Assembly (NCBI GenBank): GCA_025353765.1
Contig: JANXOD010000008.1
Span: forward strand, 1-64,000
Source of the DNA: Sphingobacteriales bacterium
Lineage (GTDB): Bacteria > Bacteroidota > Bacteroidia > Sphingobacteriales > Sphingobacteriaceae
Direction: 5' to 3'
DNA length: 64,000 nucleotides
Below the pieces are notes generated by a model. That model was not told the origin of the DNA. It did not search any database and was given only the letters and a program-made list of their open reading frames with translations. Positions 39,096 to 62,106 of this stretch are shown piece by piece. Position 1 is the first letter of the stretch, and the number at the start of each line of letters is the position of its first letter. The position numbers and the translations under genes were made by a program.

Positions 39096-41915
39096 TTATT
39101 GGATAATCATTTTTACTGTCCTAAAAGTGGTTATTGAAGATATAGCCACAACATATGCTCCTTTCTGTAAGCCTGTCCAATCGTATGCTTCTTTATATAA
39201 AGTGCCTTTACTATCAATATTTAAACTAATTACCTTTTTCCCGGTTATATCAAAAACTTCTACTAACAGCTTTTCTTTAGGAGGATTTAATAAATTCAGA
39301 GTTATTAAGCCAGTACTTGGATTGGGATAAACATCAACCTCGTAAGTACTTTTAGTTTTATCTGTAATAGGTGGTACAACTGGTGGTATGACTGGCGGAA
39401 TAATTACAGTTCCATTTCCCATCTGAAAATTAAGTACACCGGAAGGTGAGGCTGTTAAATTACCGGATGCAGATTGTGTTACCGTTACAGTTGATGAGTT
39501 ATAATCAACTTGATAAACTTTGTTTGGGCCTAATCCGCATAATGAATGTTGTGTATTGACCGGACCATTGAAAGAATAGGAAGCCATAGTAATGGGTGGC
39601 GGATATTTAGCTGTGCTATTATTGAATAATACTACTTCAGTATTTCCATTAACCTGCACGATAGACCCTTCCATATTATTTTCGTTAGTAGTTATTGCAG
39701 TAGTTACCATTTCTGTAGAAGCTAACCCTCCGGGCTGCATAACCGTCAAAATATCTTGCTTAATCGGATTCCCGTAAACACTGACTTCTGCCCGCCAGGT
39801 ATAAGTTTTGGTTACTAGAGGATCCAGATCAATATGTTCGTTTACTTTTGCAATAGTTACAGCAGCAGGAAGAACAGTATGTACATATAATTTAGAATTA
39901 TCCATAGTAGCAGTAATATTATTGCCACTTACAATGGGGCTTTCCATAAAATGCCAACGTAGATGCTTTGGATACTGGTTTGATGGATTGTTCTTCGCAA
40001 GGAATTTATCGTATACTACAAATATGTTAGAATTTCTAAGGTATAAAAATGAGCGGTAATAATATCTTAATGTTCGTTGGGAGGTGTCTGGGTTAGAATA
40101 ACTTACAAAATATGCACTGGTTAGATCTGTACGGAAATAAGAAAAAATATCATTTTGTTCTTCATGCGTAGGCTCATCATAACCATAAGCAGTTTGCCCA
40201 CCTCTCATGCCAGCATGGGTAGCATTGTCAGAATGCAAAGGGTTATCATAGTCATTGCCATCATCAATAAATAAGGTATTGCTATAGCTATTCGCATAAG
40301 TATATGTTGTCCCTCCACTTATACCATTTTGGCCGAAACCAGTTCCCTGCCCAACTTCATTGGCACCTACTAATAAATGGTCGTCTCCGTCATGAGCATC
40401 CCCTCTAATTATTTTAAAATGTCCGGCATTATTATGATTATGCTGATCATAAACACCAGCACCTAAGTCCATAGTGCACCAGGTTGCCGTATCACTCCAG
40501 TTGGTACGCATATAAAATTTATGCAGGCCTGAATTAATAGGAACAGCAGAAAATAAATTTTGTGAAGGAATAGGATAATAGGGCGGATAATTAAAAAGAG
40601 CTGATGGGCGTGTTGTGTTTTTATATAATAATTTTTCCCAGTTTAATTCAAAATAACCAAGGCTAGAGCCTGCCAAGTTTACCGGTTTAATCCAATTGGT
40701 ATAAAATTCCTGAATTTTAGGGCCTGCCGGGTGCCCTTCTGAAATAGCTGCTAAGCGAAGAGGTAAAGCATAAGCTGCCACACAGCCTAAGAATGAGCCG
40801 TTATCATTACTGTTATCATATTGAAATCTATTTGGAGTGTAAGCGTGTACTAGTGCTTCTGATGATTTATCAAAATAAGATCTTAAACTATCAGCAATAA
40901 CTTCAGTAGTTGAACTTTTCACCAAAAAGCAGTAATCTATCAAAAAATTGTTTGATTCTCCGCCATAGCTCCAACCTTGTACAGGAATTCCATCTTTTTG
41001 AGGTGCAGCTAAATAAGTATGGGGACCAAGGTATGATTGGGGGGCGGACGCAGCGGACGGAAGGCCTCCCGTAAAAGATTGCTTAAAATAATTAAATGGC
41101 AAATCGCTAGGGGATAATGAACCACTTTGTGTTCCCAAAACTCTTGCCCTGGCAAAATCTATCATTTGTTGAGAGTAAGTACTGCCATTTTTTGAATGGC
41201 TATCACCCGCTATCGCATAGCCCATATAAGCTGCACATACTAAATGTCCTATATAATAATTTCCAGTTGTCCCATATTGAATTTGATTCACTCCATGATT
41301 AGGGTCTCGCATATAATCAAACCAATCTTCCATTACATGAATTAAGGCAGCTTTGCGGGTAGGGCCTAGTTCGTCATAACACCAATCATAGATAATACCA
41401 ATGGCTTTTCCAACATGTCGTGTAGCATAAGCACTATTAAATTGGAATATGTTAGCACCATTATTATTTGCCTTAGGTGGATAGGCGGCATAAGCTGCAA
41501 TAATGACATCTGCAAATTGCATTAATTTATCAGAATAAGCAGTTTTATTAATGCCAGGATTATTTGTTTTGGTCAATTGGTGGGCCATTCCAAGCGCCAT
41601 GGCTGCGGCTTCCCATTCACTTCCGCAATATGAATAGAAAATAGAGGAAGTACCATAATAGGCATTAGATGAGGCGCTATTCACATCCCATGGTATAACT
41701 GTACCTGTTGTATACTTATCTGCTTCTGCTTTTAAAGCTATCCAATCTGGATCATTAATACTCTTCTTTGTTAGTAATGACGCTTTGGTAGTAGCATCTA
41801 AAAAAATGCGTGGATGAGCAGAAGTAACTGGTTTTTGAGCAAATGATGGGGAGCTATATAGAATAATAAAGGGAAAAAAGCAAGAAAAGCAGTAAAATAA
41901 TATATTTTTTTTCAT
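39096..41915 (-). CDS. Secreted heparinase II/III- or alginate-lyase-like polysaccharide lyase with T9SS sorting domain
   Basis: A 939-aa exported enzyme (signal peptide ending SPSFAQKP). Residues 35-400 look like an (alpha/alpha)n toroid (SAHPRIFLDATTKASLL, EAAAMALGMAHQLTK, AIGIIYDWCYDEL). A beta-rich heparinase-II/III-type part follows with YDQHNHNNAGHFKIIRGDAH, whose His/Asn residues suit a metal or catalytic site. The end (DVYPNPSTGLITLNLLNPP to KGAYVVAISS) is a T9SS sorting domain after a Pro/Val linker. It probably breaks uronic-acid-containing polysaccharide outside the cell. The substrate cannot be assigned. Two inverted repeats precede the gene. Confidence 0.8.
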   Translation of the reverse strand: MKKNILFYCFSCFFPFIILYSSPSFAQKPVTSAHPRIFLDATTKASLLTKKSINDPDWIALKAEADKYTTGTVIPWDVNSASSNAYYGTSSIFYSYCGSEWEAAAMALGMAHQLTKTNNPGINKTAYSDKLMQFADVIIAAYAAYPPKANNNGANIFQFNSAYATRHVGKAIGIIYDWCYDELGPTRKAALIHVMEDWFDYMRDPNHGVNQIQYGTTGNYYIGHLVCAAYMGYAIAGDSHSKNGSTYSQQMIDFARARVLGTQSGSLSPSDLPFNYFKQSFTGGLPSAASAPQSYLGPHTYLAAPQKDGIPVQGWSYGGESNNFLIDYCFLVKSSTTEVIADSLRSYFDKSSEALVHAYTPNRFQYDNSNDNGSFLGCVAAYALPLRLAAISEGHPAGPKIQEFYTNWIKPVNLAGSSLGYFELNWEKLLYKNTTRPSALFNYPPYYPIPSQNLFSAVPINSGLHKFYMRTNWSDTATWCTMDLGAGVYDQHNHNNAGHFKIIRGDAHDGDDHLLVGANEVGQGTGFGQNGISGGTTYTYANSYSNTLFIDDGNDYDNPLHSDNATHAGMRGGQTAYGYDEPTHEEQNDIFSYFRTDLTSAYFVSYSNPDTSQRTLRYYYRSFLYLRNSNIFVVYDKFLAKNNPSNQYPKHLRWHFMESPIVSGNNITATMDNSKLYVHTVLPAAVTIAKVNEHIDLDPLVTKTYTWRAEVSVYGNPIKQDILTVMQPGGLASTEMVTTAITTNENNMEGSIVQVNGNTEVVLFNNSTAKYPPPITMASYSFNGPVNTQHSLCGLGPNKVYQVDYNSSTVTVTQSASGNLTASPSGVLNFQMGNGTVIIPPVIPPVVPPITDKTKSTYEVDVYPNPSTGLITLNLLNPPKEKLLVEVFDITGKKVISLNIDSKGTLYKEAYDWTGLQKGAYVVAISSITTFRTVKMIIQ

Positions 41916-42045: not shown

Positions 42046-42077
42046 AAAGTCTCTAAATATCATTATTTAGAGACTTT
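42046..42077 (-). terminator. Hairpin at the left edge of the 42.1-kb scar
   Basis: AAAGTCTCTAAAT (42046-42058) pairs with ATTTAGAGACTTT (42065-42077) around a 6-base loop; a T-rich stretch follows in the leftward direction. It probably ends the leftward transcript from the COG4705/two-component operon. Confidence 0.8.
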
Positions 42078-42100
42078 TGAATCCAGATAAACTGAAGGTT

Positions 42101-42196
42101 GTCGCCCTGCCTGTACAAATTTCGAATCTATTTCTAGCAGATTTGAAGCTACTAGTGAAATTGATTGCTTAAAAAATTTTAGCCGAAATAAGAACT
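42101..42196 (-). repeat. Scar repeat A, copy 1
   Basis: About 96 bases that match 51286-51380 at close to 90% with one single-base gap; most differences are transitions. Both copies lie in the same orientation. On the minus strand a reading frame is open to a nearby stop and encodes FVQAGR near its end in both copies, so A may derive from the 3' end of a gene. It lies directly beside repeat B copy 1. Confidence 0.85.
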
Positions 42197-42201
42197 AATG
42201 A

Positions 42202-42257
42202 ATAGTCAACGAAAAGTGATTTTATCTGCCTACAATAATTTATAGTTAAAGATGTAA
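42202..42257 (-). repeat. Scar repeat B, copy 1: decayed copy of the fic promoter region
   Basis: 49 of 56 bases match 59291-59346, the upstream region of the fic gene, in the same orientation. The palindromic operator of that region is partly degraded here (AACTATAAATTATTGTAGGC on the minus strand). No fic coding sequence follows; only 5 bases separate it from repeat A. Confidence 0.85.
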
Positions 42258-42271
42258 TGTTATTTTCTTTT

Positions 42272-42540
42272 TTACACGGTAATCGCATTATGTTCCTCCA
42301 GTTTGCCAAAAAGATAACCTGTATCGTGAAGCCATGCAGCAGCAGATAATATAAAAAGTTCTTCCTCATCTAAGTTCTAATTAGCAGGTATTTCGCCAGT
42401 TCTTGTACTACACTTTGCGTATGAATAAGATTGTGGTATTGTAATTCAGGAGTTTCAAGTTCATTATATAATTGAGTAACGTATTCACTTACTGCTTGTG
42501 ATAAAACAAGATTAGACATAGCTTGATAAATGGTCAGCAT
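42272..42540 (-). pseudogene. Truncated, frameshifted HD-domain phosphohydrolase gene
   Basis: From an ATG at 42540, 3 bases after the COG4705 stop, the frame encodes LVLSQAVSEYVTQLYNELET then YHNLIHTQSVVQELAKYLL, the first His region of an HD domain. It stops at 42370. A shifted frame continues NLDEEELFILSAAAWLHD and TGYLFGKLEEHNAI, giving the HD motif itself, and ends at 42272. A single frameshift near 42375-42390 joins the two. The C-terminal half is missing where repeat B begins 14 bases further on, so the gene was probably cut by the insertion that left the scar. Confidence 0.7.
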
Positions 42541-42543
42541 ACC

Positions 42544-43344
42544 TTACGTTTGAGCTTTTATCACATCTTTTTTGGTTATCGAGAGATAAATTACTGTTAT
42601 TAAAATTGCAGTAAGAAAAATAATACTTGTTATTACTGTTCCGAGACCTAACCCACCATCAGCATGTGCCTGTGAAAGATAATCACCTATTGAAGCACCA
42701 AGAGGACGGGTTAAGATATACGCTAACCAAAATGCCAGGATGGTATTTAATTTAAAAATTTTATATGATAAATAGATTATTGCAATTGCCCCTGCAAAAA
42801 TGAGTGCTGAAAGTAAATATCCTAGTTTTAGACTCTCAGCTAATAAATCTCCTGCTGCTGTACCCAATGCAAATGTGAAAAGTATCGCCAGCCAATAAAA
42901 CATCTCTCTTCGTGAATTATTTATCTTATGAACTGATAATGTTTTCTCATAAAAATACCAAACTGATAAGGTGATAATTAAAGCAAGCGCAAAAATAATC
43001 GTAGTTGTTACCAGTGATACTCCAAAATTATCTGTTAGATTATCTGTAATTAAAGTACCAACTATACTTATTAAAACAACTGCAAGCCAGTAAATACTGG
43101 GCACATACTTATTTACTTTAAATTGAAAATAAAGTACAATAATTAGAATGAATGCCATTATTGCTGAAGTGCCTGTTAATCCCAGACCTAAATTTTCATT
43201 TAAAAAATCTGCAGCAGTTTCACCAACAGTAGTACATAAAACTTTGATGACCCAAAAATAAAACGTGATCTGAGGAACTTTATTTAAAGTTTCTCTAACC
43301 ACTAATTTAAGCGGAGTGTTAGGTTGTAGATCATTTTTATTCAT
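42544..43344 (-). CDS. COG4705 membrane protein (paralogue of 50467-51234)
   Basis: A 266-aa protein with about eight membrane helices arranged as four repeats, each holding a T-x-G-x-x-x-x-D-x-L-like motif: TTVGETAADFLNE, GTLITDNLTDN, LGTAAGDLLAES and LGASIGDYLSQA, each followed by a 'lGl'-type turn. The family is uncharacterised. The repeated Gly/Asp motifs inside helices suggest a transporter or metal path. It lies in a leftward operon after a histidine phosphatase, and a related gene lies 7 kb away facing the other way. Confidence 0.8.
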   Translation of the reverse strand: MNKNDLQPNTPLKLVVRETLNKVPQITFYFWVIKVLCTTVGETAADFLNENLGLGLTGTSAIMAFILIIVLYFQFKVNKYVPSIYWLAVVLISIVGTLITDNLTDNFGVSLVTTTIIFALALIITLSVWYFYEKTLSVHKINNSRREMFYWLAILFTFALGTAAGDLLAESLKLGYLLSALIFAGAIAIIYLSYKIFKLNTILAFWLAYILTRPLGASIGDYLSQAHADGGLGLGTVITSIIFLTAILITVIYLSITKKDVIKAQT

Positions 43345-43361
43345 AATTAGATTTTTACAAA

Positions 43362-43922
43362 TCAGTAATTACATTTATCAGCAGGGCTTAAATTTTCTAT
43401 ATCTCTTTTCAATACTGCTATTCCTTTTTCAAATGTTATAATAAGAATTGAATCATAATCATTATCAGCCCATTGAATATTCTCTTTAATGCCTAACTCC
43501 TTAAGTATTTTTGAAATGTGCTTATGTTCCCATACCAACAGAACCGTGCCATTTAAGTATTTGATTGCGTTTGCAATGGTTTTACTTTCGGATTCATCAT
43601 ATTTGGTATTAATGTCCATATAATGCTGTATAGCATAGGGCGAAATAGTTTGGAACATTCTAGAATGATTAGTAGAGTTTCCATTTTTTAATGCAGGAAC
43701 CAATATGTGATCAATTACACCAAACTTTTTATTCAGAACTTCTGGAAGCTGTAAGGACCTGTTTAAACCTTTGCAGGACAGGTTATCTCCGTGTTCAGGT
43801 TTTTCGCCATGCCTGATAAATATAATTTTCTTAGCTGTTACACTTGAAGTAGATTGACTAAAACAACTGCTGGAATAAACAATTGCTATAGAAAATACTA
43901 TCATTTTTAATTTCCAGTTCAC
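43362..43922 (-). CDS. Exported histidine phosphatase family protein
   Basis: A 186-aa protein with a signal peptide (MIVFSIAIVYSSSCFS) and the phosphoglycerate-mutase-like catalytic start IIFIRHGEKPEHGDNLSCKG, where the RHGE His would be phosphorylated. The second His is in VLLVWEHKHISKILKEL. The proteins of this group with RHGEKP are small and of unknown substrate. It would act in the periplasm. It is within the operon of the two-component system, after the PepSY-like gene. Confidence 0.8.
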   Translation of the reverse strand: MNWKLKMIVFSIAIVYSSSCFSQSTSSVTAKKIIFIRHGEKPEHGDNLSCKGLNRSLQLPEVLNKKFGVIDHILVPALKNGNSTNHSRMFQTISPYAIQHYMDINTKYDESESKTIANAIKYLNGTVLLVWEHKHISKILKELGIKENIQWADNDYDSILIITFEKGIAVLKRDIENLSPADKCNY

Positions 43923-43984
43923 TTTCTATAAATTTTAAATACTACAAATTATTAACCATTGAAGTAATACCGGTGAAAATATAT

Positions 43985-44425
43985 TTAATCTTTTTTTATA
44001 TACTTACCATTAAAATCAAAGATTAAATCTTTCCCTTTTATTTCAACCTCATAAGTTTGCGCACCTGCAGCATCTGTAACTTTTCCTACCTCTTTTATCT
44101 TTGCTCCTTTATAATTTTTAGCTATGTATGGCGCAATAGACTTTGGCAATGAACTAACAGGAATTGCTTCTACCATTTCAATGAAAGTACCTGAAGGGGT
44201 AAACATAACAGAATGATCTTCATTCGACTTGCCACCCCAATTGGCTTCATAATTTCCCTTTTCTTTTTCCCACGTAACTTTTTTTGCATCAGGATATTTT
44301 TTTGCAAGTGCTGTTTTAACAGCTGCTGGTACATCAATTTTTTCTGAACCTTTTTCTTCCTTCTGAGCGAAAGAAGCGGTATTTAAAGCAATGAGAATTG
44401 CTAATACTGAAAATAATCTTTTCAA
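43985..44425 (-). CDS. Periplasmic PepSY-like (DUF2874) protein
   Basis: About 146 aa from a TTG start at 44425, which gives a proper signal peptide (LKRLFSVLAILIALNTASFAQ). An upstream in-frame ATG at 44500 would add 25 residues before the signal and seems unlikely. The mature part has two PepSY-like repeats: VPAAVKTALAKKYPDAKKVT with WEKEKGNYEANW, and LPKSIAPYIAKNYKGAKIKE with YEVEIKGKDLIFDFNG. These proteins often sit beside two-component systems in Bacteroidota and may sense or bind at the envelope. It follows the sensor kinase gene by 81 bases. Confidence 0.75.
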   Translation of the reverse strand: MKRLFSVLAILIALNTASFAQKEEKGSEKIDVPAAVKTALAKKYPDAKKVTWEKEKGNYEANWGGKSNEDHSVMFTPSGTFIEMVEAIPVSSLPKSIAPYIAKNYKGAKIKEVGKVTDAAGAQTYEVEIKGKDLIFDFNGKYIKKD

Positions 44426-44506
44426 AACTTTTATTTTAAATGAATAAAGAACAAATCTAAAAATACATTCTGGTAAAAATTTGAAGATTGAATCCGCCAA
44501 CCAAAA

Positions 44507-45763
44507 CTAAAAGTTAATTGTTGTTGCATGGATGGAATCAGCATAAGAGTATTTAATATCAAAATTATATCTATCGCAAATCTTTTTTACTATGGATAAT
44601 CCCAAACCTAATGAATCGGAAGTGACTTTATCTTTTTTAAACCTTTCAAATAATGCTGAGGGGTTGCTGATTAAAGGTATACCAGTATTAAAGATATTTA
44701 AAGATTGCGTTGTTAATGTAATTTGAATACAGCCATCATCATAATTGTGTTTAATTGCATTCGTTATAAGATTTACAATTAATATTTGGGCAAGGTCTTC
44801 GTTGATAATTAGCTTTACATCTGCTTTAATATCTTTTGAAAGGTTTATTTGTTTTGCTGTGATAAGTTCTTCAAAATTATTAAGATGTTTGCTAGTAATA
44901 TCGCTAATATCAACTTCATCATTTTCAGTAAACTGCCTATTCTCAATCTTTGTTAATAGTATAAGTGATTGATTCAATTTCGAGAGCCTGTTGGTAGTTT
45001 CATATATTGATTGTATTGTATCCATTTGTTCTTCTTTCAAATTTTCTGACTGACTTAGTAATTCGAGTTTTGATTTAATGATAGCTAATGGTGTTTGTAT
45101 CTCATGTGATGCATTTTCTGTAAAATTTTTTATTTCTTCATAATCCTGACTTACTTGATTAGTCATTATGTTTACAGCGTCATTTAGCTCTTTAAATTCA
45201 TTAATATCGCTGTCTTCAAGATCAATTTTTTCTTTACCAGATAGATTGAATTTTTTAATTTGATGAAGGGTAGAATTAAATGGCTTCCATAGTTTACTTA
45301 ATAAAAATCTATTAATTAAAAAGAGTGATACAAGCAATATTAAAGCAATTGCAAGGGAGATAGTTAGTATTAACTGTATAAGGTCTTCTGTTTCCTCAAG
45401 AGATCTTCTTATTACAATTTTGTATTTTTTATTCCCCGCATTTACACCAAATTGCAGCTGCCGGTATGAAACATTTTCGTCTTGCTGTTTATTAAAAATG
45501 TTGATAGTGCTAAATGTGCGTAAAGTTTTTGCATCAGTAGCGGGCAAAAATTCCTCCTGTTCATCTTTGTAATTTGTAGGCTCAGGCAATTGGTTATTTT
45601 CTTTAGCATAGTTTGTAATTTCCCGCTCTTCAACCTTCACGTTTTTATCCAACTGGTGTACTAATACAGCTCTTATAAAAAAATAATAGCAGATAGCACT
45701 TAGCAACAAAACAATTACTGTGGCGATTGCATTAGCCCTGTTATATTTGACAATTAGTTTCAT
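44507..45763 (-). CDS. Sensor histidine kinase
   Basis: A 418-aa membrane kinase. Two membrane segments (about 13-31 and 137-158) bracket a small periplasmic sensor domain. The H-box is ENASHEIQTPLAIIKSK near residue 217. The N-box (LIVNLITNAIKHNYDD), F-box (FERFKKD) and G2-box (SLGLGLSIVKKICDRY) follow. It would phosphorylate the response regulator gene product, whose stop overlaps its start by 4 bases. It most resembles OmpR-class kinases that respond to envelope signals. Confidence 0.92.
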   Translation of the reverse strand: MKLIVKYNRANAIATVIVLLLSAICYYFFIRAVLVHQLDKNVKVEEREITNYAKENNQLPEPTNYKDEQEEFLPATDAKTLRTFSTINIFNKQQDENVSYRQLQFGVNAGNKKYKIVIRRSLEETEDLIQLILTISLAIALILLVSLFLINRFLLSKLWKPFNSTLHQIKKFNLSGKEKIDLEDSDINEFKELNDAVNIMTNQVSQDYEEIKNFTENASHEIQTPLAIIKSKLELLSQSENLKEEQMDTIQSIYETTNRLSKLNQSLILLTKIENRQFTENDEVDISDITSKHLNNFEELITAKQINLSKDIKADVKLIINEDLAQILIVNLITNAIKHNYDDGCIQITLTTQSLNIFNTGIPLISNPSALFERFKKDKVTSDSLGLGLSIVKKICDRYNFDIKYSYADSIHATTINF

Positions 45764-46431
45764 ATGTCAGAAAATTTATACCCCATCCCGTATATGGATT
45801 TTATATAATCAATCTGACCTGCATCAAATAATTTTTTGCGAAGGTTTTTGATATGCGTATAAATAAAATCGTTGTTGCCTTCCATACCATCCCCCCAAAG
45901 ATGTTCTGCTATTGCATTTTTAGAAATTACCTTTTTTTTATTGCTCACAAAGTATAAAAGGAGCTCATATTCTTTTTTAGTAAGCTCCAGGTGTTTATTG
46001 TAAATAGTAACAATTTTTGCTTGTGTATCAATGCTTATGCAATTAAATTTTACTAAATGGTTACCATCAAATTTTTTACGCCTTATAATGGCAGCAATTC
46101 TTGCACTTAATTCTGAAAGATGAAAGGGCTTTGGCAAATAATCATCTGCGCCCAACGTAAGCCCTTTTACTTTGTCATCTAAAGAATTTTTTGCAGAAAT
46201 AATAAGCACGCCATCCATTTTTTTATTCGCTTTTAATTCCTTTAAAATTTCAAGACCACTCCCACCCGGTAAAGTAATGTCTAATAAAATACAGTCATAA
46301 TCATATTGTTCAGTTTTTGCTAATGCACTATGAAATGTGTTGGCAACTTCACATAAATAATCCTCACTTTTTAAGTAAGTAGCAATGCTCTTACTCAATT
46401 CTTTTTCATCTTCTATAATAAGGATTTTCAT
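45760..46431 (-). CDS. OmpR/PhoB-family response regulator
   Basis: A 223-aa two-domain regulator. The receiver has the acidic pocket (ILIIEDEKELSKSI), the phospho-Asp in YDCILLDITLPGGSG and the Lys in DDYLPKPFHLSEL. The C-terminal winged helix ends NDFIYTHIKNLRKKLFDAGQ. It is the first gene of the leftward operon and is divergent from the PAP2 gene, with 96 bases between. It may therefore control both directions. Confidence 0.93.
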   Translation of the reverse strand: MKILIIEDEKELSKSIATYLKSEDYLCEVANTFHSALAKTEQYDYDCILLDITLPGGSGLEILKELKANKKMDGVLIISAKNSLDDKVKGLTLGADDYLPKPFHLSELSARIAAIIRRKKFDGNHLVKFNCISIDTQAKIVTIYNKHLELTKKEYELLLYFVSNKKKVISKNAIAEHLWGDGMEGNNDFIYTHIKNLRKKLFDAGQIDYIKSIYGMGYKFSDI

Positions 46432-46527
46432 TATTATTGTTGTAAATTATGGAATGAGGTTGAAGAAAACTGAAGTATAAAGGTAGTTCTTCAATTTTTC
46501 TACAGAATTGTACCTAATTTTTGTCTT

Positions 46528-47508
46528 ATGAAATATGCCCATAAAAAGTTATTTTTGATACCTTTTTTTCTGATCTTGTTTTCTCCGTTTTTGGCTTTCT
46601 CACAAAAAGATACGTTAATAAATAAATTAGACAGCCTAAGTAAAAAAACTGATAGTTTGGGAGGGCAACTTAATAATATAAATCCAAAAGCTTACAATAA
46701 AAAAACTGCACTTTCGGTAAATACATATTTTACATTATTAGGCAGTGATCTTAAGCAGGCATTTACCAAACCTTTTCATATGAAAAGAAAAGATTGGTTG
46801 AGATTTGGAAAGTTTGCGATTTTTACTGGCGCTATGATGTTTGCAGATAAGCCTATTCAAAAATTTACTGTAGAACATATTAGTAATAACACGGCAATAA
46901 GGAATATAAGTAAAAACATTACTACCTTTGGAGGAGTAGGTGAAATAGCAACTCTGACTGCCTTTGGAGCTTATGGAGTTATTTTTAAAAAGTCTAAGAT
47001 GGTTACAACGACGCTATTAGCAACACAGTCTTATATTACAGCAGCGGCAGTAGAAAATGTTCTTAAATTTTTATCAGGAAGAACAAGACCTTCAGTTTAT
47101 TATAATGGAGAAGAACCAAAGCCAAGATTTTTAGGACCTTTTTCAAAAACTGGAACAGATGCTAATGGAAAAAAATTGTACAGTTCTTTTCCTTCCGGAC
47201 ATACGACGGTTGTTTTTGCAGCAGCTACTGTTTTTGCCAAAGAGTATAGTGATAAACCCTTAGTACCGATACTCGCATATAGTGTAGCTACCCTTGTTGG
47301 TATAAGCAGAATTATTGAGAATGCTCATTGGACTACAGATGTTATTGCAGGAGCAGCATTAGGATATTTAAGTGGACGGCTGGTTGTAAATAATTATCAC
47401 AGGTATGCAAAAATTAAAGCCCCTAATCAAAATAAAGGAACAATTTCATTTAATTTAAATTATATGCAGGGGTCAATTATGCCAGGCTTTATTTATAAAT
47501 TTAAGTGA
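46528..47508 (+). CDS. PAP2-family phosphatase, exported
   Basis: A 326-aa protein with a signal peptide (LFLIPFFLILFSPFLAFSQ). The three PAP2 motifs are complete: KFLSGRTRPSVY, SFPSGHTTVVFAAA and SRIIENAHWTTDVIAG, so the phosphatase is probably active on lipid or nucleotide phosphates at the envelope. Hydrophobic helices lie between motifs. It begins the rightward operon that includes the TonB-type protein and lies opposite the response regulator gene. Confidence 0.88.
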   Translation: MKYAHKKLFLIPFFLILFSPFLAFSQKDTLINKLDSLSKKTDSLGGQLNNINPKAYNKKTALSVNTYFTLLGSDLKQAFTKPFHMKRKDWLRFGKFAIFTGAMMFADKPIQKFTVEHISNNTAIRNISKNITTFGGVGEIATLTAFGAYGVIFKKSKMVTTTLLATQSYITAAAVENVLKFLSGRTRPSVYYNGEEPKPRFLGPFSKTGTDANGKKLYSSFPSGHTTVVFAAATVFAKEYSDKPLVPILAYSVATLVGISRIIENAHWTTDVIAGAALGYLSGRLVVNNYHRYAKIKAPNQNKGTISFNLNYMQGSIMPGFIYKFK

Positions 47509-47585
47509 CATAACGAGTGCTACATTATGAATTTCTGCTCCAAATTTTCTCCAGAATCATAAGTAATATTTGCAAAAATATTTTG

Positions 47586-50003
47586 ATGATGTTCAAAAGA
47601 AAATTGCTTTTATTAATTAATCTCACTCTGTGTTCAATATCTGTTTTAGCTCAATTGAAAGGTTCAGAGATTTCCGGTACTGTTACTGATGGAAATTCAA
47701 AAGCCCCTATTGAATTTGCTAACGTGCAATTATTAAAATCTATTGATAGTAGTATAGTAAAAGCTACAGCCACAGATAAAAAAGGGAGATTTACTATTAA
47801 GAACGTGGCTATAGGTAACTATATTTTGCTTTGTACTTTTATCAGTTATGAAAAAGTAAAACTGCCAATATCAATAAGTGCAGGGCAGCAAAAATATAAT
47901 ACTGGTATCATTAAAATCTCTTCCCTTTCACAAACAATGGATGCTGTTCTGGTTACCACAAAAAAATCTATGCTCAATACTTCTATTGACCGAAAAATAT
48001 ATAATGTTGGTCAGGATATCATGGCGCAAAGCGGTTCTGCTTCAGATATTTTAAAGAATGTTCCTTCAGTAGAAGTTGATATTGATGGTGGCGTAAGTCT
48101 TAGAGGTTCTGCGGAAGTTATGATACTTATTGATGGGAAACCTTCTCCATTAATGGGTAAAACAAGAGCGGAAGTGCTTCAACAATTACCTGCTAATTCC
48201 ATTGAAAGAATTGAAGTTATTACAAATCCATCAGCAAGATTTAAACCCGATGGAACTGCCGGCATAATTAATATTGTAATGAAAAAAAATATAAAGAGCG
48301 GTTGGAATGGAACGGCTACAGGGAATATTGGAACTAATAACCGTTACAATGGAAGTCTTAATCTAAATTATAAAACAAATAATTTAAATGTTTTTGGGAG
48401 TTATGGTATAAGGCAGGATAGCAGAAGAAGGATAAACATAATTGATCGCCAGGAAATTGACTCTTCGGGACATACTTCGTTATTCTATAATGAACAAAAC
48501 GTTTCCCCTGCACGACCACTTTCTCATTTATTTTCAGGAGGTGCAGAATATAAATTAGATGATCATAACAGTATTGGTATTTCAGGCAATCACTCTAATC
48601 GTTATCTTACTAAGAATGACATTGCAAACAAATATTATTATTCCCCTTCACACGTCCTTACCCAGCAATATGACCGTTTGCGTTATGATCCTGAATATGA
48701 GATAGAGAGTGATGCCACTGCTTTTTGGCAACATGATTTTAAAAAAGAAGATCATAACATACGTTTTGAATATAATAAATCATGGCAAAATGAACAGGAA
48801 GATAATCACTTCACCAATAAATATAATTTTCCTATAGCAGCTACTACCTATGATAATACTTTAATAAAACAAACGAGCAAAGAAAATCACATCACTGCTG
48901 ATTATTCAAACCCAATATCAGAGAATGCAAAGTTGGAATTAGGTTATGATGGTTCCTTTAATGTTTATGACCCCATTTTTTACGGTGAGTATTTTGATGC
49001 CTATCAGCAAAAGTTTATTATGGATGTTACTAAATCAAATAAATTTATTTATGATCAAAAGCTCAATGCTATTTATGCAACATATCAACGGAGCTATGGT
49101 GCATTTGGTTACTCTGCAGGGTTGCGAGGAGAGCAAACCAATATTAAAGCAAACCTGGTTTCAATAGATTCTGTTTTGAACAACAGCTATTTTAAGCTTT
49201 ATCCTACCATACATTTTGATTACAAAGTTAAAAATGGAGATTTGCAATTGAATTACAGCAGAAGGGTTCGTCGCCCTGAAGCAGATGACCTAAACCCTTT
49301 TCCAGAATATGCTGATCCAAGAAATTTACGTGCAGGTAATCCCAAATTATTGCCTGAAATTATTAATTCTATTGAGTTTGGATATAAATGGCAAAATGAT
49401 AAATATTCATTTGTACCCAGCCTTTATTACCGCTACAAACAAAACGGGTTTACACAGGTTATCTCAAAATTTAATGATTCAACTTTTCTGACAACTCAAC
49501 AAAATTTATCAAATGATCAGTCCGCAGGTTTAGAATTAATTGTTTCTGCAAAGCCAGCTAAATTTGTACAAACAAACCTTATTTCTAATATTTTTTATGA
49601 TATGATTGATGCATCAAACCTTGGATTTACCGCAAAAAAATCTGTTATTTCCATGAGCGCAAACTTCAACAGTACTTTTATTGTTACTAAAAATACCATG
49701 CTGCAAATCAGCAGTAATTATCGTTCTGCAAGATTAACTCCACAAGGAAAATCTTATGGCACATTTGTTTTTAATGCCGGTGTTAGACAGGATCTTTTTA
49801 AAAAGAAATTATCTTTAACGCTAACAGGTTTTGATCTTTTTAAAACGTTACAGGAAAAAAGGGAATTAAATACTCCTTTTTTGAAACAGCTCAATATTGG
49901 AAGGCGTGATGCACAAATATTCTATTTTGGTGCTGCATATCACTTTGGTAAAACGATAAAAAAATCAAGCGAAGAGAAATTGCAATTTGATAGTGGGCTA
50001 TAA
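47586..50003 (+). CDS. Outer-membrane TonB-dependent-type beta-barrel protein with CarboxypepD_reg domain
   Basis: About 805 aa. The signal peptide follows MMFKRKLLLLINLTLCSISV, so I start at 47586 (next Met at 47589) rather than upstream, where 23 residues precede the signal. A CarboxypepD_reg-like domain (ISGTVTDGNSKAPIEFANVQ) follows, then a plug region (GSASDILKNVPSVEVDIDGG, SIERIEVITNPSARF) and an outer-membrane barrel (OMP_b-brl_3 type) ending in an aromatic strand (AQIFYFGAAYHF) before a short tail. The ligand is unknown. It is next to PAP2 and the two-component system, so it is likely regulated by them. Confidence 0.88.
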   Translation: MMFKRKLLLLINLTLCSISVLAQLKGSEISGTVTDGNSKAPIEFANVQLLKSIDSSIVKATATDKKGRFTIKNVAIGNYILLCTFISYEKVKLPISISAGQQKYNTGIIKISSLSQTMDAVLVTTKKSMLNTSIDRKIYNVGQDIMAQSGSASDILKNVPSVEVDIDGGVSLRGSAEVMILIDGKPSPLMGKTRAEVLQQLPANSIERIEVITNPSARFKPDGTAGIINIVMKKNIKSGWNGTATGNIGTNNRYNGSLNLNYKTNNLNVFGSYGIRQDSRRRINIIDRQEIDSSGHTSLFYNEQNVSPARPLSHLFSGGAEYKLDDHNSIGISGNHSNRYLTKNDIANKYYYSPSHVLTQQYDRLRYDPEYEIESDATAFWQHDFKKEDHNIRFEYNKSWQNEQEDNHFTNKYNFPIAATTYDNTLIKQTSKENHITADYSNPISENAKLELGYDGSFNVYDPIFYGEYFDAYQQKFIMDVTKSNKFIYDQKLNAIYATYQRSYGAFGYSAGLRGEQTNIKANLVSIDSVLNNSYFKLYPTIHFDYKVKNGDLQLNYSRRVRRPEADDLNPFPEYADPRNLRAGNPKLLPEIINSIEFGYKWQNDKYSFVPSLYYRYKQNGFTQVISKFNDSTFLTTQQNLSNDQSAGLELIVSAKPAKFVQTNLISNIFYDMIDASNLGFTAKKSVISMSANFNSTFIVTKNTMLQISSNYRSARLTPQGKSYGTFVFNAGVRQDLFKKKLSLTLTGFDLFKTLQEKRELNTPFLKQLNIGRRDAQIFYFGAAYHFGKTIKKSSEEKLQFDSGL

Positions 50004-50040
50004 AAAAGTATTTTACTTATTGACTCTTTAAAAAATTTAT

Positions 50041-50454
50041 ATGTGGTGGATTTATGCTTTATTAGCTGCTTTTTTTGCAGCGCTTACAGCAATATTTGCA
50101 AAAGTTGGTATAAAAGGAGTTGATACTGATTTAGCTACTGCAATAAGAACGGTTGTAATCTTAATAATTGCATGGGGCATTGCAATTTTCCGGGGCGGGG
50201 TTTTTACAATAACAACATTATCAAAACAAAATATTTTGTTCCTATGCTTTTCGGGTATTGCAACAGGGCTTTCTTGGATATTTTATTTTAAAGCCTTGCA
50301 AATTGGTAAGGTTTCTCAAGTGGCACCCGTAGATAAATTGAGTGTGGCAATTGCTATTATTTTATCAGTTGTTTTTTTAGGGGAAACTTTATCACTAAAA
50401 ATTGCAGCTGGTGCATTACTAATAATAGCAGGTACAATTATTTTGATTTTATAA
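50041..50454 (+). CDS. EamA/DMT-family small membrane protein
   Basis: A 137-aa membrane protein with about five hydrophobic segments and the half-length EamA pattern (WIYALLAAFFAALTAIFAKV at the start, VAPVDKLSVAIAIILSVVFL near the end). Full-size EamA exporters have two such halves, so this one may act as a dimer. It is 38 bases after the barrel gene and 13 bases before the second COG4705 gene. The transported substrate is unknown. Confidence 0.85.
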   Translation: MWWIYALLAAFFAALTAIFAKVGIKGVDTDLATAIRTVVILIIAWGIAIFRGGVFTITTLSKQNILFLCFSGIATGLSWIFYFKALQIGKVSQVAPVDKLSVAIAIILSVVFLGETLSLKIAAGALLIIAGTIILIL

Positions 50455-50466
50455 GATTTAAACATT

Positions 50467-51234
50467 ATGAAAAGTACATTAAATAAGGTTGCAAAAATTA
50501 CTGTTTTCTTTTGGATAATGAAAGTGATTGCTACAACGCTTGGAGAAATGCTTGGTGATTTCTTTTCAATGACTTTAAATTTGGGTTATATAGTTAGCCT
50601 TGGTATTACTGTTGGTTTATTTTTAATTGTATTGATAATGCAGTTACGGGCAAATAAATACCATCCTGCACTTTATTGGTTAGTTATTGTAGGTACAACA
50701 ACTGTTGGTACTGAAATATCTGACCTTATGGACAGAACATTGGGGCTTGGGTATGCACTCGGTTCGCTTATACTCTTTTTGTGTTTATTACTCACTTTAT
50801 TTTTATGGCATAAAAACCAAAAAGAAATAAAAGTTTATCCTATAACCGAAGTAAGAGTAGAAATGTTTTATTGGATAGCTATATTGTTCTCAAATAGCTT
50901 AGGTACTGCCTTCGGTGATTATCTTACAGACAATATGAGATTGAGTTATTTAGAAGGTGCTGGTATAACAGCAGCAATAATAATTATTGTTGTTCTTGTA
51001 CATTATTTTACTAAAATCAATGAGATATTGCTTTTTTGGATAGCTTTTATTTTTACACGTCCTTTTGGAGCAACTTTTGGAGACTTACTTACAAAATCTT
51101 TGGCAAAAGGAGGTTTAAATTTTGGAAGAGGTACTGCCACCTTAATTGCCGCTGCAATGTTGGCTATAATAATTTATTTTTCTGATAGGAACGAGAAGGC
51201 TGGGGAATTAGAAACTAAGAGATCCCAGTTTTAA
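50467..51234 (+). CDS. COG4705 membrane protein (paralogue of 42544-43344)
   Basis: A 255-aa protein with the same fourfold pattern as the first copy: TTLGEMLGDFFSM, TTVGTEISDLMD, NSLGTAFGDYLTDN and RPFGATFGDLLTKS. The similarity to the 42.5-kb protein (start KVAKITVFFWIMKVIATTLGE versus KVPQITFYFWVIKVLCTTVGE) is clear. It closes the rightward operon and is followed by a hairpin terminator and repeat A2. Confidence 0.8.
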   Translation: MKSTLNKVAKITVFFWIMKVIATTLGEMLGDFFSMTLNLGYIVSLGITVGLFLIVLIMQLRANKYHPALYWLVIVGTTTVGTEISDLMDRTLGLGYALGSLILFLCLLLTLFLWHKNQKEIKVYPITEVRVEMFYWIAILFSNSLGTAFGDYLTDNMRLSYLEGAGITAAIIIIVVLVHYFTKINEILLFWIAFIFTRPFGATFGDLLTKSLAKGGLNFGRGTATLIAAAMLAIIIYFSDRNEKAGELETKRSQF

Positions 51235-51250
51235 TGCGTGTAATCATAAT

Positions 51251-51281
51251 ATTTAAAGCCCTGAATTTCAGGGCTTTAAAT
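51251..51281 (+). terminator. 15-bp hairpin after the second COG4705 gene
   Basis: ATTTAAAGCCCTGAA (51251-51265) and TTCAGGGCTTTAAAT (51267-51281) form a perfect inverted repeat with one central base. Repeat A2 starts 5 bases further on. Confidence 0.8.
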
Positions 51282-51285
51282 TAGT

Positions 51286-51380
51286 GTCGCCCTGCCTGTA
51301 CAAATTTCGAACCTATTTTTAGCAGATTTAAAGCTATTAGTAAAATTGATTGCTTAAAAAATCTTAGTCGCAATAAAACT
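51286..51380 (-). repeat. Repeat A, copy 2: left boundary of the defence cassette
   Basis: About 90% identical to 42101-42196, same orientation. It lies between the terminator above and the 3' end of the defence operon. The minus-strand frame also ends FVQAGR, then H and a TAA just before the hairpin. Confidence 0.85.
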
Positions 51381-51495
51381 AAAATTGAAGATTTTAAGGG
51401 TTAGATATTACAATTAAAGTGTTTCAATATTAGTTACACTATATTTCGTAGCTGTAATTACCAATATTGTTGCACCTATTATAATTAGATTCACC

Positions 51496-53496
51496 TTAAG
51501 TAGAATCATTATTTACCTCAAGTAAGTAGCGACAAGTATAGGCTGTATAGGAAGGATATATATGCTCAAAGTACATTTTACTGAAAATTCCAACATTTAG
51601 ATACATTATTTTTTTAGTGGCTTCATCAGTAATTTTAATACCGCGATTTTTATAAATAAATAAGCCACTGTTTTTTTGATTATCTACAATTTTCATAGTT
51701 TCCTTTCGTGAAAGCCATTCCGCTTTTAATCCATAATTAGAAAACAACATTAAATATTGGTCTATATTTAGCATGAAAAATAACTTTGTTCTTCCGAATA
51801 AGATGTCAAATAAAAAATCTTTTGAAAATGGTAAAAACAATAGTGGTTTATTTAATGACCTAATTACATGTAAGAAATCCATTATAATAAAGTTATTACC
51901 TGAATGCTGACCTATAGAATCTAGAATTGAAGGACCAATAAATTTTAATGGGCCTTTGTATAAGGCAATGTGCAAGCAATCTTCAATTACATCATAAGCC
52001 CATAAATTTCTCGCTTCTAATTGCTTTTGGAGCTTACGCAGCTTATCATCAAATTTAGGAGTGTCTTCTCTAGGAGTTATAATCTTAACCGATTTACCTG
52101 ATTTATCTACTCCTTTATCATTATTTAAAATGTTGGTAAGATTTATCATCTCCCTTAATTGTTTAAGATTCCGATCTAACTGTTTAATTGACTTTCCATC
52201 CAATTTTAAATTATCTATTATTTTTTCTAAAGGTTCATCCGAATTTATTATATCCTCAAGGATTTTAAAAATCTCCTGATTCTTTACTCCTTCTTTAACT
52301 TCAACGAATTCGAGTGATTTATTCTCTTTCATTATCATTATATCTCCTGATTGGATATAGGCGGACAGGTCAGTAATCAGTGCGAAATCAAGATCATTTT
52401 TATTTATTTCATCAGCAGCCCTGATAACAGAGGCTATATTTGATTTTAAAAGTCTTTTTTCTCCTTTAACATCCTGATACAGTCGTCTTGCTATATACAG
52501 TTGTCCTTTTATCATCTGCCATGCTATAGTATCAATTAAGTGTCTTAATATATGTTCCTTACTTTCAATACCTATAACAGAAGCATTTAGTTCTAAAACC
52601 TGAGACTTATTTTTTTCATTATCTAAACTTTTTAGAACCAGTTTCAATTTATATTTTTCAACTTCAAAAGCTAACATTAATGCTAATATTTTTTGTTGCG
52701 CTTTTTTAAATCCTTCATGGCAATTTTTTATAAAGGCTTCCCTGTTTTGTTCAATGAAGTTTTTAAAATCTGAGGGGTTAAATTTTTTATCTTTAACAGT
52801 CTTATCAAAGCCATAGTGACAAATAAGATCAGCAATCTCTATAACTTGATCTTCAAATTTATTTAACTCATCTTTTTTTTTGAGTTGTAAGGGTCTTTGA
52901 TTATCCAGTTTAGCAATGGCTTCTTCTAATGATTGTGTTTGTGTATATTCAAGAATATTCTTTTCATATTCGTCACTCAAAGGCGTAACTATCCCATTAC
53001 TTTTGGCATTTAATAGGTATCGAATGCCATCCATTTGTTTATCTCCAGCATCATTAAGTATAGATTTAATTGCGAGATCAGCAAGTATGTTAGGTGAATT
53101 AACACCAAGATTAGATGCAATAGATGTATAAATAACTTTGTTAATCCCTTCAAAATTTTCTAAGGTTCTAACTTGCACACTATCCTTCCCGGGATTGGCC
53201 TTCTTTTTATACTTCTTATTTGTATCAGCTTCTCTTATTTCCCTCCGCCAAAGCATATTTTCAGCTTCTTCTATAGAAATGCTTTTATCTAAGACCAGAA
53301 TTACTCCATTTACCTGTGCCCCTTCATTTTCTATGGGAATAAGCGTAGGAGCATAATCTCTTGATTTACTCATCCTGGCATATTCAACATTGAAAGGAGT
53401 AACGCAGGAAATCCGTTCAATAATTAATGGGGCAATTTCACTACCTGGTTCATTAATTAATGACCCGTAAGCTAAGATTCCTATAGTCGTTTCCAT
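51496..53496 (-). CDS. GGCT-like domain fused to a putative PD-(D/E)xK nuclease, last gene of the defence operon
   Basis: A 666-aa protein that I do not recognise as a described defence protein. Residues 1-180 look like a gamma-glutamylcyclotransferase-like (AIG2/BtrG) fold: GILAYGSLINEPG with the YGSL substrate loop, AQVNGVILVLDKSI and a Glu-rich segment NMLWRREIREADT that could supply the catalytic acid. Residues 200-370 are helical. Near 384-403, GDIMIMKENKSLEFVEVKEG has the spacing of a PD-(D/E)xK nuclease (Asp385, Glu399, Lys401). The remaining 250 residues have no clear match. It starts 15 bases after the UvrD-like gene, so it is translated with the Gabija-like pair. Confidence 0.75.
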   Translation of the reverse strand: METTIGILAYGSLINEPGSEIAPLIIERISCVTPFNVEYARMSKSRDYAPTLIPIENEGAQVNGVILVLDKSISIEEAENMLWRREIREADTNKKYKKKANPGKDSVQVRTLENFEGINKVIYTSIASNLGVNSPNILADLAIKSILNDAGDKQMDGIRYLLNAKSNGIVTPLSDEYEKNILEYTQTQSLEEAIAKLDNQRPLQLKKKDELNKFEDQVIEIADLICHYGFDKTVKDKKFNPSDFKNFIEQNREAFIKNCHEGFKKAQQKILALMLAFEVEKYKLKLVLKSLDNEKNKSQVLELNASVIGIESKEHILRHLIDTIAWQMIKGQLYIARRLYQDVKGEKRLLKSNIASVIRAADEINKNDLDFALITDLSAYIQSGDIMIMKENKSLEFVEVKEGVKNQEIFKILEDIINSDEPLEKIIDNLKLDGKSIKQLDRNLKQLREMINLTNILNNDKGVDKSGKSVKIITPREDTPKFDDKLRKLQKQLEARNLWAYDVIEDCLHIALYKGPLKFIGPSILDSIGQHSGNNFIIMDFLHVIRSLNKPLLFLPFSKDFLFDILFGRTKLFFMLNIDQYLMLFSNYGLKAEWLSRKETMKIVDNQKNSGLFIYKNRGIKITDEATKKIMYLNVGIFSKMYFEHIYPSYTAYTCRYLLEVNNDST

Positions 53497-53511: not shown

Positions 53512-55248
53512 CTAAAGTATAATTATATCGTTGCCGAACTTAGATTTCAAATCAATGTCGCTATAAGTATCAGGAATGCCTAAACACAATAGTTTTCGAG
53601 GTCTTGAAATACCAACGTAAATTAATCGTTGCTTTTCTGTTGGCATATCAACAGGCTCAATAAAATGATCTAATGAAATGTTTTGGGCAGTATTATTTTC
53701 ACTTAAAATTAGCAGTACAGAATCAAACGTCATTCCTTTTACTTGATGAATGGTTGTTATGGGTAAATTGCTTTCAGTAGTTGCTTTCTTAAAATATTGA
53801 TTAATCGGGCTTTCGAGAGTTTTTACATCAAATTTATTGGAAGACCTTTTTCTGATGCCAAAATCAAGATTGGCTGATAACACTAGAGTTTCCTTAAGAT
53901 ACTTTTCCGTATCCATTGTCCATTGCTTTATAGATAGATCAAAAGCGGGCATAGCACGAATTAAGTTAAAAACCTGTGCATGTAATTCATGGTTAGATTG
54001 GTTTTCATCTTCCTTTTCTCTTAAATCTTTAAAACCCAAACCAGGGTTCAATAAAGCAATAAATAATCTTTTAACTTTACGAACGGCTTCCTTTATTTCG
54101 TTTGATTCCAAATGAATTTTAGCTTCAATTAGCTTGTAAGGCAAATCATTACTCCAAGGTTCAAATGAGGCATGCCTTCCTAATAGGGAATTTCGTAAAG
54201 TATTACCTCTTACTAAAATTCGATTATTATCAAAGGATTTATCTAAACATAGCTTTTCATAAATTGGAATTATAAATGCTGGCGAACCAACTGGATATTT
54301 TAAAATATGTGGATATAAATCATCTTCAGTATTATTGCAAGAACTAATTGGTGCCTCTCCCTTTCTTCTCAAAGGGCTGAATATATTTACTATTCTTTGA
54401 GTAGACCTTCTGTTTTCCGAAAGACAAAGTCTCCTCCAGTTATTTTTATCATCAAACTTCTGTAAGAATAATTCGGGGCTTGCATTTCTCCATTGATATA
54501 AACATTGATAAGGGTCGCCCACTAAATCTAAATGCTCTAGCCCACCTTTTGTTAACTCATCAAGAATAGTATGTTGAATTTCAGATGTGTCGTCTTGCGC
54601 CTCATCTATTATCAAATAAGGAAATCTTGAAGCTAGATATTTTGATACTCGTGGAAATTGCTGCAATATCTTCAGGGCAAACAATGCAGAATCGGATATT
54701 TTTAATAATAGTGCTTTATATTGAGCTTCCTTTATTGCATTTCCGTACTTCACAAAATCCGTATCATCACTTTTATCATGCCCATCCCAAATAATGTTAC
54801 CATCAAAATCAATTTTACTTGGCGCAAAACGATATATAAAGTTCTTGTATGTCTTTATAAACTGCCAGTTATTTTGAAATAATCGATCTATATAACTAAT
54901 GTCATCAACTATTCTGAACCGTTTATTATTATCCATTAACTTATGGATAAATGGAAGGGCAATGTTCATATTAACAAAGCTATCTATAGTTGAGATGGTA
55001 TGCGGATAACTCAAAGGAAACCCACTTGCTTCCCTGAACTTTTCCGCAATTTCATTTTTAGCTACATTTGTAAAAGATAAGCAAGCAATGCCGCCTGAAC
55101 TTCCATAGGAAAAGTCCCAATCGCTAACTAATTTTATTAGCTTATGAGCAATGGTCGAAGTCTTTCCGCTACCTGGGCAGGCATTTAGCACTACTTTTCC
55201 TAATGCCTCAATATATGTTTGTTGTTCGGCAGTAGAGATAAAACTCAT
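53512..55248 (-). CDS. gajB: UvrD/Rep-like helicase, Gabija GajB-like
   Basis: Superfamily 1 helicase of 578 aa. Motifs are visible in order: Walker A ACPGSGKTSTIAHKL (23-37), Ia SFTNVAKNEIAEKF, II YLIIDEAQDDTSE, III LVGDPYQCLYQWRN, IV CLSENRRSTQRIV, V TTIHQVKGMTFDSVLL and VI RLIYVGISRPRKLL. The start overlaps the stop of the OLD-family gene by 4 bases. An OLD ATPase-TOPRIM gene followed by a UvrD-like helicase is the two-gene Gabija anti-phage architecture (GajA plus GajB), and the sizes fit. Confidence 0.85.
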   Translation of the reverse strand: MSFISTAEQQTYIEALGKVVLNACPGSGKTSTIAHKLIKLVSDWDFSYGSSGGIACLSFTNVAKNEIAEKFREASGFPLSYPHTISTIDSFVNMNIALPFIHKLMDNNKRFRIVDDISYIDRLFQNNWQFIKTYKNFIYRFAPSKIDFDGNIIWDGHDKSDDTDFVKYGNAIKEAQYKALLLKISDSALFALKILQQFPRVSKYLASRFPYLIIDEAQDDTSEIQHTILDELTKGGLEHLDLVGDPYQCLYQWRNASPELFLQKFDDKNNWRRLCLSENRRSTQRIVNIFSPLRRKGEAPISSCNNTEDDLYPHILKYPVGSPAFIIPIYEKLCLDKSFDNNRILVRGNTLRNSLLGRHASFEPWSNDLPYKLIEAKIHLESNEIKEAVRKVKRLFIALLNPGLGFKDLREKEDENQSNHELHAQVFNLIRAMPAFDLSIKQWTMDTEKYLKETLVLSANLDFGIRKRSSNKFDVKTLESPINQYFKKATTESNLPITTIHQVKGMTFDSVLLILSENNTAQNISLDHFIEPVDMPTEKQRLIYVGISRPRKLLCLGIPDTYSDIDLKSKFGNDIIIL

Positions 55249-57626: not shown

Positions 57627-57655
57627 GTGTTTTCTAATGCTAACCGCCTTTTCTG

Positions 57656-59262: not shown

Positions 59263-59290
59263 ACGCTTGACAAACTTACTAAAAAAACAC

Positions 59291-62088: not shown

Positions 62089-62106
62089 AGTTTTTACTTT
62101 CTAGAA

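Follow-up and report, generated by a model that had tools for sequence, protein, structure and literature searches.

Repeats beside a Gabija-Abi-Fic gene run point to stacked integrative elements at a tRNA-Pro gene and to a serine recombinase gene divided by its own attachment site

Introduction

CTnDOT-like conjugative transposons of Bacteroidota carry TraG, TraJ, TraM, a YWFCY coupling protein and a MobA-type relaxase. Accretion of ICEs and CIMEs, of the type represented by ICESt1, was reportedly described by Pavlovic et al. in 2004. In Dehalococcoides, the gene for the serine recombinase DsiB overlaps both the att site and ssrA, as stated in the accessible text of the report (PMC3146451), whose authors raise the possibility that full function of the gene is restricted to the circle or to a position next to a neighbouring island that supplies a 3' fragment. 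Suicidal integrases of the SSV type are called exclusively archaeal in the available sections of another paper (PMC8371274). Insertion of serine recombinase elements into tRNA genes is referred to as rare in the available sections of a paper on actinobacterial elements (PMC3218068).

The window considered here comprises the first 64,000 nucleotides of contig JANXOD010000008.1 from a Sphingobacteriales bacterium. It contains a run of Gabija, Abi and Fic genes flanked by two sequences, A and B, of which second copies lie side by side at 42.1 kb. An earlier note had interpreted the genes as a mobile defence cassette with the ends A and B, and the pair at 42.1 kb as the scar of a related cassette. 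We compared both sequences with other genomes of the same family and followed A to the gene at the far end of the element to which it belongs.

Results

In a self-comparison of the window (E 1e-3), the two strongest repeats were the plus-strand pair A1 (42100-42198) and A2 (51285-51382), which align over 99 columns with 91% identity (E 6e-31), and the minus-strand pair B1 (42202-42257) and B2 (59291-59346), which align without gaps over 56 columns with 87.5% identity (E 7e-11). These local alignments bear out, to within a base or two, that A1 resembles A2 and B1 resembles B2 in the same order and orientation. The small spacing between A1 and B1 was confirmed as well, with 3 bases in the present alignment in place of the 5 given before. 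The 2.83 Mb genome to which the window belongs contains two strong copies of A, next to nine other matches that are all short (E 0.09-0.6), and only two copies of B. Since each repeat occurs twice in the genome and the copies adjoin in the same order, the pairing of A and B is not due to chance.

A DNA search found A in 39 of 399 genomes of the family, including the own genome, and in 8 of 25 genera, the weakest matches lying outside the core, covering A only in parts and possibly reflecting chance. An exact 29-base pattern of A was present in 10 named records, among them Hufsiella, Flavobacterium, Chitinophaga, Sediminibacterium and Mucilaginibacter. In many loci, A starts sharply at GTCGCCC directly after a terminator-like hairpin (recognised by eye), and in four of them (L047, L071, L074 and L075) similar right sides and different left sides meet at exactly this motif. 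The sharp start and the shared right sides next to differing left sides indicate that A is the end of a mobile element. Other genomes carry different cargo near A, including genes for Toprim and relaxase proteins, HSP70, SusD, RtcB, an amidohydrolase, an RND pump and an OLD-like ATPase, in a survey of hand-chosen proteins, some of which gave no family match. This variety implies that the defence genes beside A2 are one cargo among many. A function of A as terminator was ruled out, because the hairpins are located outside A and belong to neighbouring genes or to a tRNA trailer. A tRNA remnant was also rejected, as the window contains no tRNA and the variation of A is coding-like.

The plus strand of A contains the end of a reading frame, ..VQISNLFLxDLK/RxLA..stop, which can be read at 23 of 29 family loci (L011-L039) and is broken, cut or unreadable in the remaining six. 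It corresponds to the last 23 codons and the stop codon of a recombinase gene (42101-42172 in A1, encoding VALPVQISNLFLADLKLLVKLIA; 51286-51357 in A2), the rest of which forms the other end of the element, 52 kb from A. In the own genome (G000), this gene lies outside the window at 101,550-103,193, on the same contig and strand as A2 at 51,285, and its frame runs without a stop into tRNA-Pro(TGG), which is positioned antisense at 103,062-103,136. Resolvase (PF00239, 4e-22), Recombinase (PF07508, 2e-9) and zinc-ribbon (PF13408, 3e-6) domains in one protein mark the product as a large serine recombinase, for which recombination activity on attP and attB is predicted. A is, as far as its sequence tells, the attL shared by a family of integrative elements whose movement depends on such a recombinase.

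At least six pairs of attL and recombinase, no more than 100 kb apart on one contig and strand, were found by eye. Besides G000, genes with PF07508 were present in G001 and G278, and relatives of the own recombinase in G170, G065 and G103, all at distances of about 17-80 kb from A. Up to three recombinase candidates were scored per genome, and in several genomes with A the recombinases listed are remote or located on different contigs. In five of the six elements, the recombinase gene and the A tail are in the same reading frame at the core; the exception is G103, where one base is missing and the join is out of frame. tRNA-Pro overlaps the 3' end of the recombinase gene in G000 and G001; in G001, whose element (L067) measures 16.7 kb, the gene likewise enters the antisense strand of the tRNA with no stop. 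Two of the six pairs are of a Lys type and keep the tail as SNHFLADLKLL, so the pairing of tail and recombinase covers both Pro-type and Lys-type elements.

Related recombinases were detected in 222 of 399 family genomes (E 1e-30). We inspected 70 recombinase 3' ends, consisting of 30 loci from the family search and 40 that were picked by hand from the upper part of the table of a further recombinase listing; three loci without a clear recombinase end (L157, L158 and L159) were counted as misses. An antisense tRNA was reached by 52 of these ends (Met 12, Pro 9, Lys 7, Arg 6, Leu 6, His 6, Glu 3, Asp 2, Val 1), and a tRNA on the same strand by none of the 70. Several of the remaining 18 recombinases end in tRNA-like fragments, as judged by eye. 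At L137, the recombinase frame crosses repeated antisense copies of tRNA-Asp and yields a repeated peptide. One locus (L150 in G308) was considered as a naturally joined recombinase and tail, but its frame runs about 60 residues past the tail-like part; no tRNA was found within the 60 kb read around it. It may represent an insertion in a different gene and was not counted.

The half-sites at the two ends place the attachment site of the recombinase inside its own gene, which is split on integration as in suicidal integrases, and the joined gene can be deduced from them. In the mechanism that we propose, attP would lie within the 3' end of the recombinase gene, and integration at the 3' end of tRNA-Pro would cut the gene at the codon GTC (core GTCG, at 42101 in A1). 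The last 23 codons would thereby come to stand at the left end as A, and the gene at the right end would read on into the antisense strand of the tRNA and gain the peptide encoded there. On the circle, the joined gene would read ..SSEV followed by ALPVQISNLFLADLKLLVKLIA and a stop, and integration and excision may be ongoing. The recombinase had no match in plasmids or phages, A had none in plasmids, and an exact 27-base pattern of A was absent from viral contigs. Five recombinase loci were present in viral contigs, and the four with a readable frame had no joined tail (L207 was unreadable at its listed start). As no circular form was found, attP itself has never been observed.

A narrower account of the tail would accept the stack of elements described below and hold that the tail is conserved only as a DNA recognition site, with the overlap of the recombinase frame as a by-product. 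For this comparison, 41 tails were reduced to 29 by leaving out a near-duplicate (L014), six broken or partial tails (L016, L017, L018, L020, L031 and L037) and five duplicates (L067, L071, L072, L073 and L076). Codons 1-8, which adjoin the core, are conserved with differences of 0.23/0.30/0.29 at codon positions 1/2/3 and have no codon pattern, as expected for a DNA site. Against a purely DNA-based conservation, the corresponding values in codons 9-19 are 0.32/0.25/0.51, and close pairs in this part differ by 193 synonymous versus 58 nonsynonymous single-difference codons, counted among related sequences that are not independent. The tails of A1 and A2 differ in 5 of 24 codons, 5 synonymously and 0 nonsynonymously, which simple models assign a chance probability of 0.001-0.006. 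In addition, SNxFLxDLK/RxLA is common to Pro-type and Lys-type elements. By these sequence comparisons, the separated tail varies like protein-coding sequence, and we regard conservation as a DNA site alone as unlikely.

The position of A1 is explained by its left flank. The 72 bases at this edge had 8 matches other than the own locus in 20 genomes of the genus, six of which directly adjoin a tRNA-Pro 3'-end sequence, three of them next to a whole tRNA-Pro; the other two (L202 and L206) have no tRNA-Pro sequence beside them. The tRNA-Pro site was found in 16 other genomes of the genus as a hairpin (by eye), a short spacer and GTCGGG...tRNA-Pro, the seventeenth locus (L090) being the occupied own site. 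The left flank of A1, with a terminator hairpin at 42046-42077, is the trailer of tRNA-Pro and the left half of the original attB, so A1 represents the original junction and 61 kb (42,100-103,061) have been inserted between tRNA-Pro and its trailer. Judged from its sequence, the stretch from 42.1 to 103.06 kb is a stack of a 9.2 kb remnant, e1, on the side of A1, followed by a 51.8 kb element, e2, on the side of A2. Short copies of the tRNA-Pro 3' end next to the trailer, with the rest of the tRNA missing, were seen in G119, G139 and G104 (L198, L203 and L204) and are probably junctions of other elements at the same target. The other 19 genomes of the genus contained no match (E 1e-20) to the gene on the left of A1 (39096-41915).

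The element e2 starts with A2 and ends at tRNA-Pro, with both ends defined at one target gene (A2 at 51286, tRNA-Pro at 103,062, trailer at 42046). Its conjugation genes, assigned by Pfam, comprise a relaxase, a YWFCY/TraG coupling protein, a TraG P-loop protein, CtnDOT_TraJ and TraM; this coupling protein and the relaxase are encoded at 60100-63387 on the minus strand. By its genes and ends, e2 appears to be a CTnDOT-like conjugative element that may excise and transfer. Just inside A2, it carries the Gabija, Abi and Fic genes, all on the minus strand: the SoFic-type Fic protein (58126-59298, PADLOC E 1.5e-121), an AbiJ_NTD3 protein (57656-58114, PF18860 E 3e-35), an Abi_C protein (57186-57626, PF14355 E 2e-17), the Gabija nuclease GajA (55245-57140, PADLOC E 1e-257) and the Gabija helicase GajB (53512-55248, PADLOC E 8e-100). 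Abi_C and AbiJ_NTD3 are distributed over two small adjacent genes (57186-58114), which PADLOC lists as AbiJ and PDC-M01A, respectively. The run ends with a 666 aa protein (51496-53496, minus strand) that matched no Pfam or PADLOC family and may be a partner of unknown type. Further cargo of e2 (L080-L081, contig C6, 66-84 kb) includes an RND pump, a P-type ATPase and a multicopper oxidase, apparently for copper resistance.

The element e1, a candidate cis-mobilizable element, would be a remnant without recombinase, beginning with A1 beside the original tRNA-Pro trailer. Pfam detected neither a recombinase nor a conjugation family among the 9 ORFs examined, and the matches to PF07508 in the genome are located on C28 and at C6:102084 and those to PF00589 all outside 42-51 kb, so that none falls into e1. 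Its interior (42270-51284) contains PepSY-like, PAP2, TonB-type outer-membrane and EamA proteins and a two-component pair (Pfam). Two genes for DUF347 membrane proteins (42544-43344, minus strand, and 50467-51234, plus strand) lie inside e1 at its two sides and face outwards. On its left, e1 has A1 as attachment site; on its right, it stops at the GTCG core of A2 with a half-site that has no recognisable relative and, unlike a recombinase end, consists of the DUF347 terminator followed by GT and then GTCG. The left flank of A2 gave weak, mostly hairpin-sized matches in 26 of 301 genomes, including the own one, and was rejected as a second tRNA-Pro trailer because 14 inspected match loci contained neither a tRNA nor the tRNA-Pro 3'-end motif. 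The interior of e1 matched 261 of 399 genomes, including the own one, with 65-76% DNA identity among the matches listed, which does not tell its origin.

B is located at the start of fic and had five matches outside the own genome among the 399 genomes. In G165, it lies upstream of a fic gene whose protein is 88% identical over 372 residues, and in G015 (L041) a B-like promoter adjoins a fic remnant that retains only the start, residues 5-48 or about the first 44 codons, with 57% identity; the other three, weaker matches had no fic match. By position and sequence, B is the putative promoter/operator region of fic. The half-sites TGACTATA...TATAGTCAA are common to the three intact copies, B2 and those of the two other genomes, and have changed to TGCCTACA and TATAGTTAA in B1, in agreement with the operator decay that had been described there. 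No match to fic is left beside B1 (L046). The promoter with a fic remnant in G015 indicates that loss of fic beside a promoter of this type is not unique to the window. Immediately to the right of B1, a short frame (42345-42515, minus strand) with the HD-like string YHNLIHTQSVVQ appears to be a broken gene.

We propose that tRNA-Pro once harboured an older element which shared the left end and had fic close to it, and that the DNA between the end of A and the start of fic was then deleted, which would have brought A1 next to the decaying promoter B1. The remnant e1 would accordingly derive from a diverged relative in which fic likewise lay close to the left end, and it would have arrived before e2. 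Five bases, ACTAA, occur at the end of A and again shortly before B2, which fits a deletion through short homology; together with parsimony, this shared sequence is our reason for suggesting a single event. Alternatively, A1 and B1 could be a local duplication of parts of the present e2, an idea favoured by the A1/A2 match of 99 bases, which extends past the stop codon and is longer than any match of A outside the own genome. The divergence of 9-12% in A1/A2 and B1/B2, which is synonymous in the tail, speaks for two separately arrived elements rather than a recent duplication, and the tRNA-Pro trailer to the left of A1 marks this copy as an original integration junction. A local duplication thus seems quite improbable to us.

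The proposal that the defence cassette itself is the mobile unit, with A and B as its ends and the scar as the joined ends after its loss, draws on the fact that A and B flank the cassette and are fused at 42.2 kb in the same order, and on the two strong genome copies of each. Against it, other A copies stand beside other cargoes, with fic and the B operator absent from 30 A loci (L047-L076), and B accompanies fic where no A was found, since G165 and G015 are not among the genomes with an A match. The earlier note had suggested a search for A-B pairs around other gene sets in related genomes; A occurs in 39 and B in 6 of the 399 family genomes (DNA, E 0.001), and the own genome is the only one with both. 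This independent occurrence, a refuting condition named in the earlier note, counts against a cassette bounded by A and B and leaves the interpretation as a relic unaffected. The two halves of the attachment site match A with the recombinase end at tRNA-Pro and not with B, and the difference of about 9% between A1 and A2 means that the scar is not a recent footprint. Cassette ends at about 51286 and 59346 had to be given up, because A is the attL of a far larger element that extends to the recombinase gene at tRNA-Pro, at 103 kb. Mobility is indeed involved, with the whole element as mobile unit and the cassette as its cargo, and a 3' tail was indeed left behind at the scar, but its owner is the recombinase and not the cassette. 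A stretch of related DNA that shared the left end and the fic promoter probably resided at 42.1 kb and lost its interior, as had been assumed, so the earlier interpretation as a whole is partly supported, whereas a mobile cassette with the ends A and B is not supported and in our estimate highly improbable. A chance meeting of an ordinary terminator (A) with an ordinary promoter (B) at 42.2 kb, as the promoter-like B and the hairpin adjoining many A copies might suggest, has a practically negligible probability, given that the hairpins lie outside A and come from neighbouring genes or the tRNA trailer, that A varies like coding sequence, that the genome has two copies of each in adjacent position and the same order, and that recombinase and tRNA genes were seen at the far ends of A copies for six elements.

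Discussion

The explanation that we favour as a whole, and hold to be very probable, combines a recombinase gene split at attL, elements stacked at tRNA-Pro and a scar containing the former promoter of fic. What looked like the scar of a cassette thereby documents two mobile elements at a single tRNA gene, and the 51.8 kb conjugative element becomes the likely unit by which the Gabija-Abi-Fic genes are moved. A can be used to recognise the far end of serine recombinase elements of a class that is common in Bacteroidota, many of which are inserted in tRNA genes.

Tentatively, we consider a more general role of the tail, although we would not expect it to hold in most outcomes. In a large class of serine recombinases of Bacteroidota, attP would be placed in the coding end of the recombinase gene itself, and each integration would replace a conserved tail, the last 20-30 residues or so of the protein, by a tRNA-antisense peptide, so that the tail would act as a built-in sensor of the integration state. 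If this were true, the free circle would produce the integrating form of the enzyme and the integrated element a different one, and within a stack an adjacent element could return the tail to the recombinase on its left. The state of integration would then be coupled to the direction of recombination without a separate factor, and the class would represent a bacterial counterpart, based on serine recombinases, of the archaeal suicidal integrases. We found no description of a split and conserved tail in Bacteroidota in the literature searched, most subscription journals being beyond reach.

The closest known systems each share part of these features. Like CTnDOT-like transposons, e2 carries TraG, TraJ, TraM, a YWFCY coupling protein and a MobA-type relaxase, but its recombinase is a large serine recombinase at tRNA-Pro. 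As in the ICE-CIME accretion of ICESt1, a remnant without recombinase is located next to an intact element with shared attachment sites in one target gene; here, in contrast, a serine recombinase and a tRNA gene are involved, and the right half-site of e1 is not recognisable. The AICEs in tRNA-Leu of Mycobacterium are also serine recombinase elements in tRNA genes, but their conjugation is of the actinobacterial type, and a split tail is absent from the accessible part of their description (PMC3218068). Integrases of the SSV type likewise have the attachment site within the integrase gene, which integration splits between the ends of the element; according to the available sections of PMC8371274, they differ in being tyrosine recombinases that are cut into inactive halves. 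The recombinase described here is a bacterial serine recombinase and not a tyrosine recombinase of the Phage_integr_3 type, and it would lose only about 23 residues. The greatest similarity exists to the dsiB islands, in which, as the accessible text of PMC3146451 states, the gene also overlaps the att site at its 3' end and reads into the antisense strand of an RNA gene without a clear stop, and which likewise occur as tandem and possibly cis-mobilizable islands. The suggestion made there that the recombinase is fully functional only on the circle becomes directly testable with the split tail. DsiB differs by its CcrB-type recombinase, its tmRNA target and its occurrence in Dehalococcoides, whereas the elements of Bacteroidota use many tRNA targets, and the missing 3' fragment lies at their far end, where it varies in a protein-like manner.
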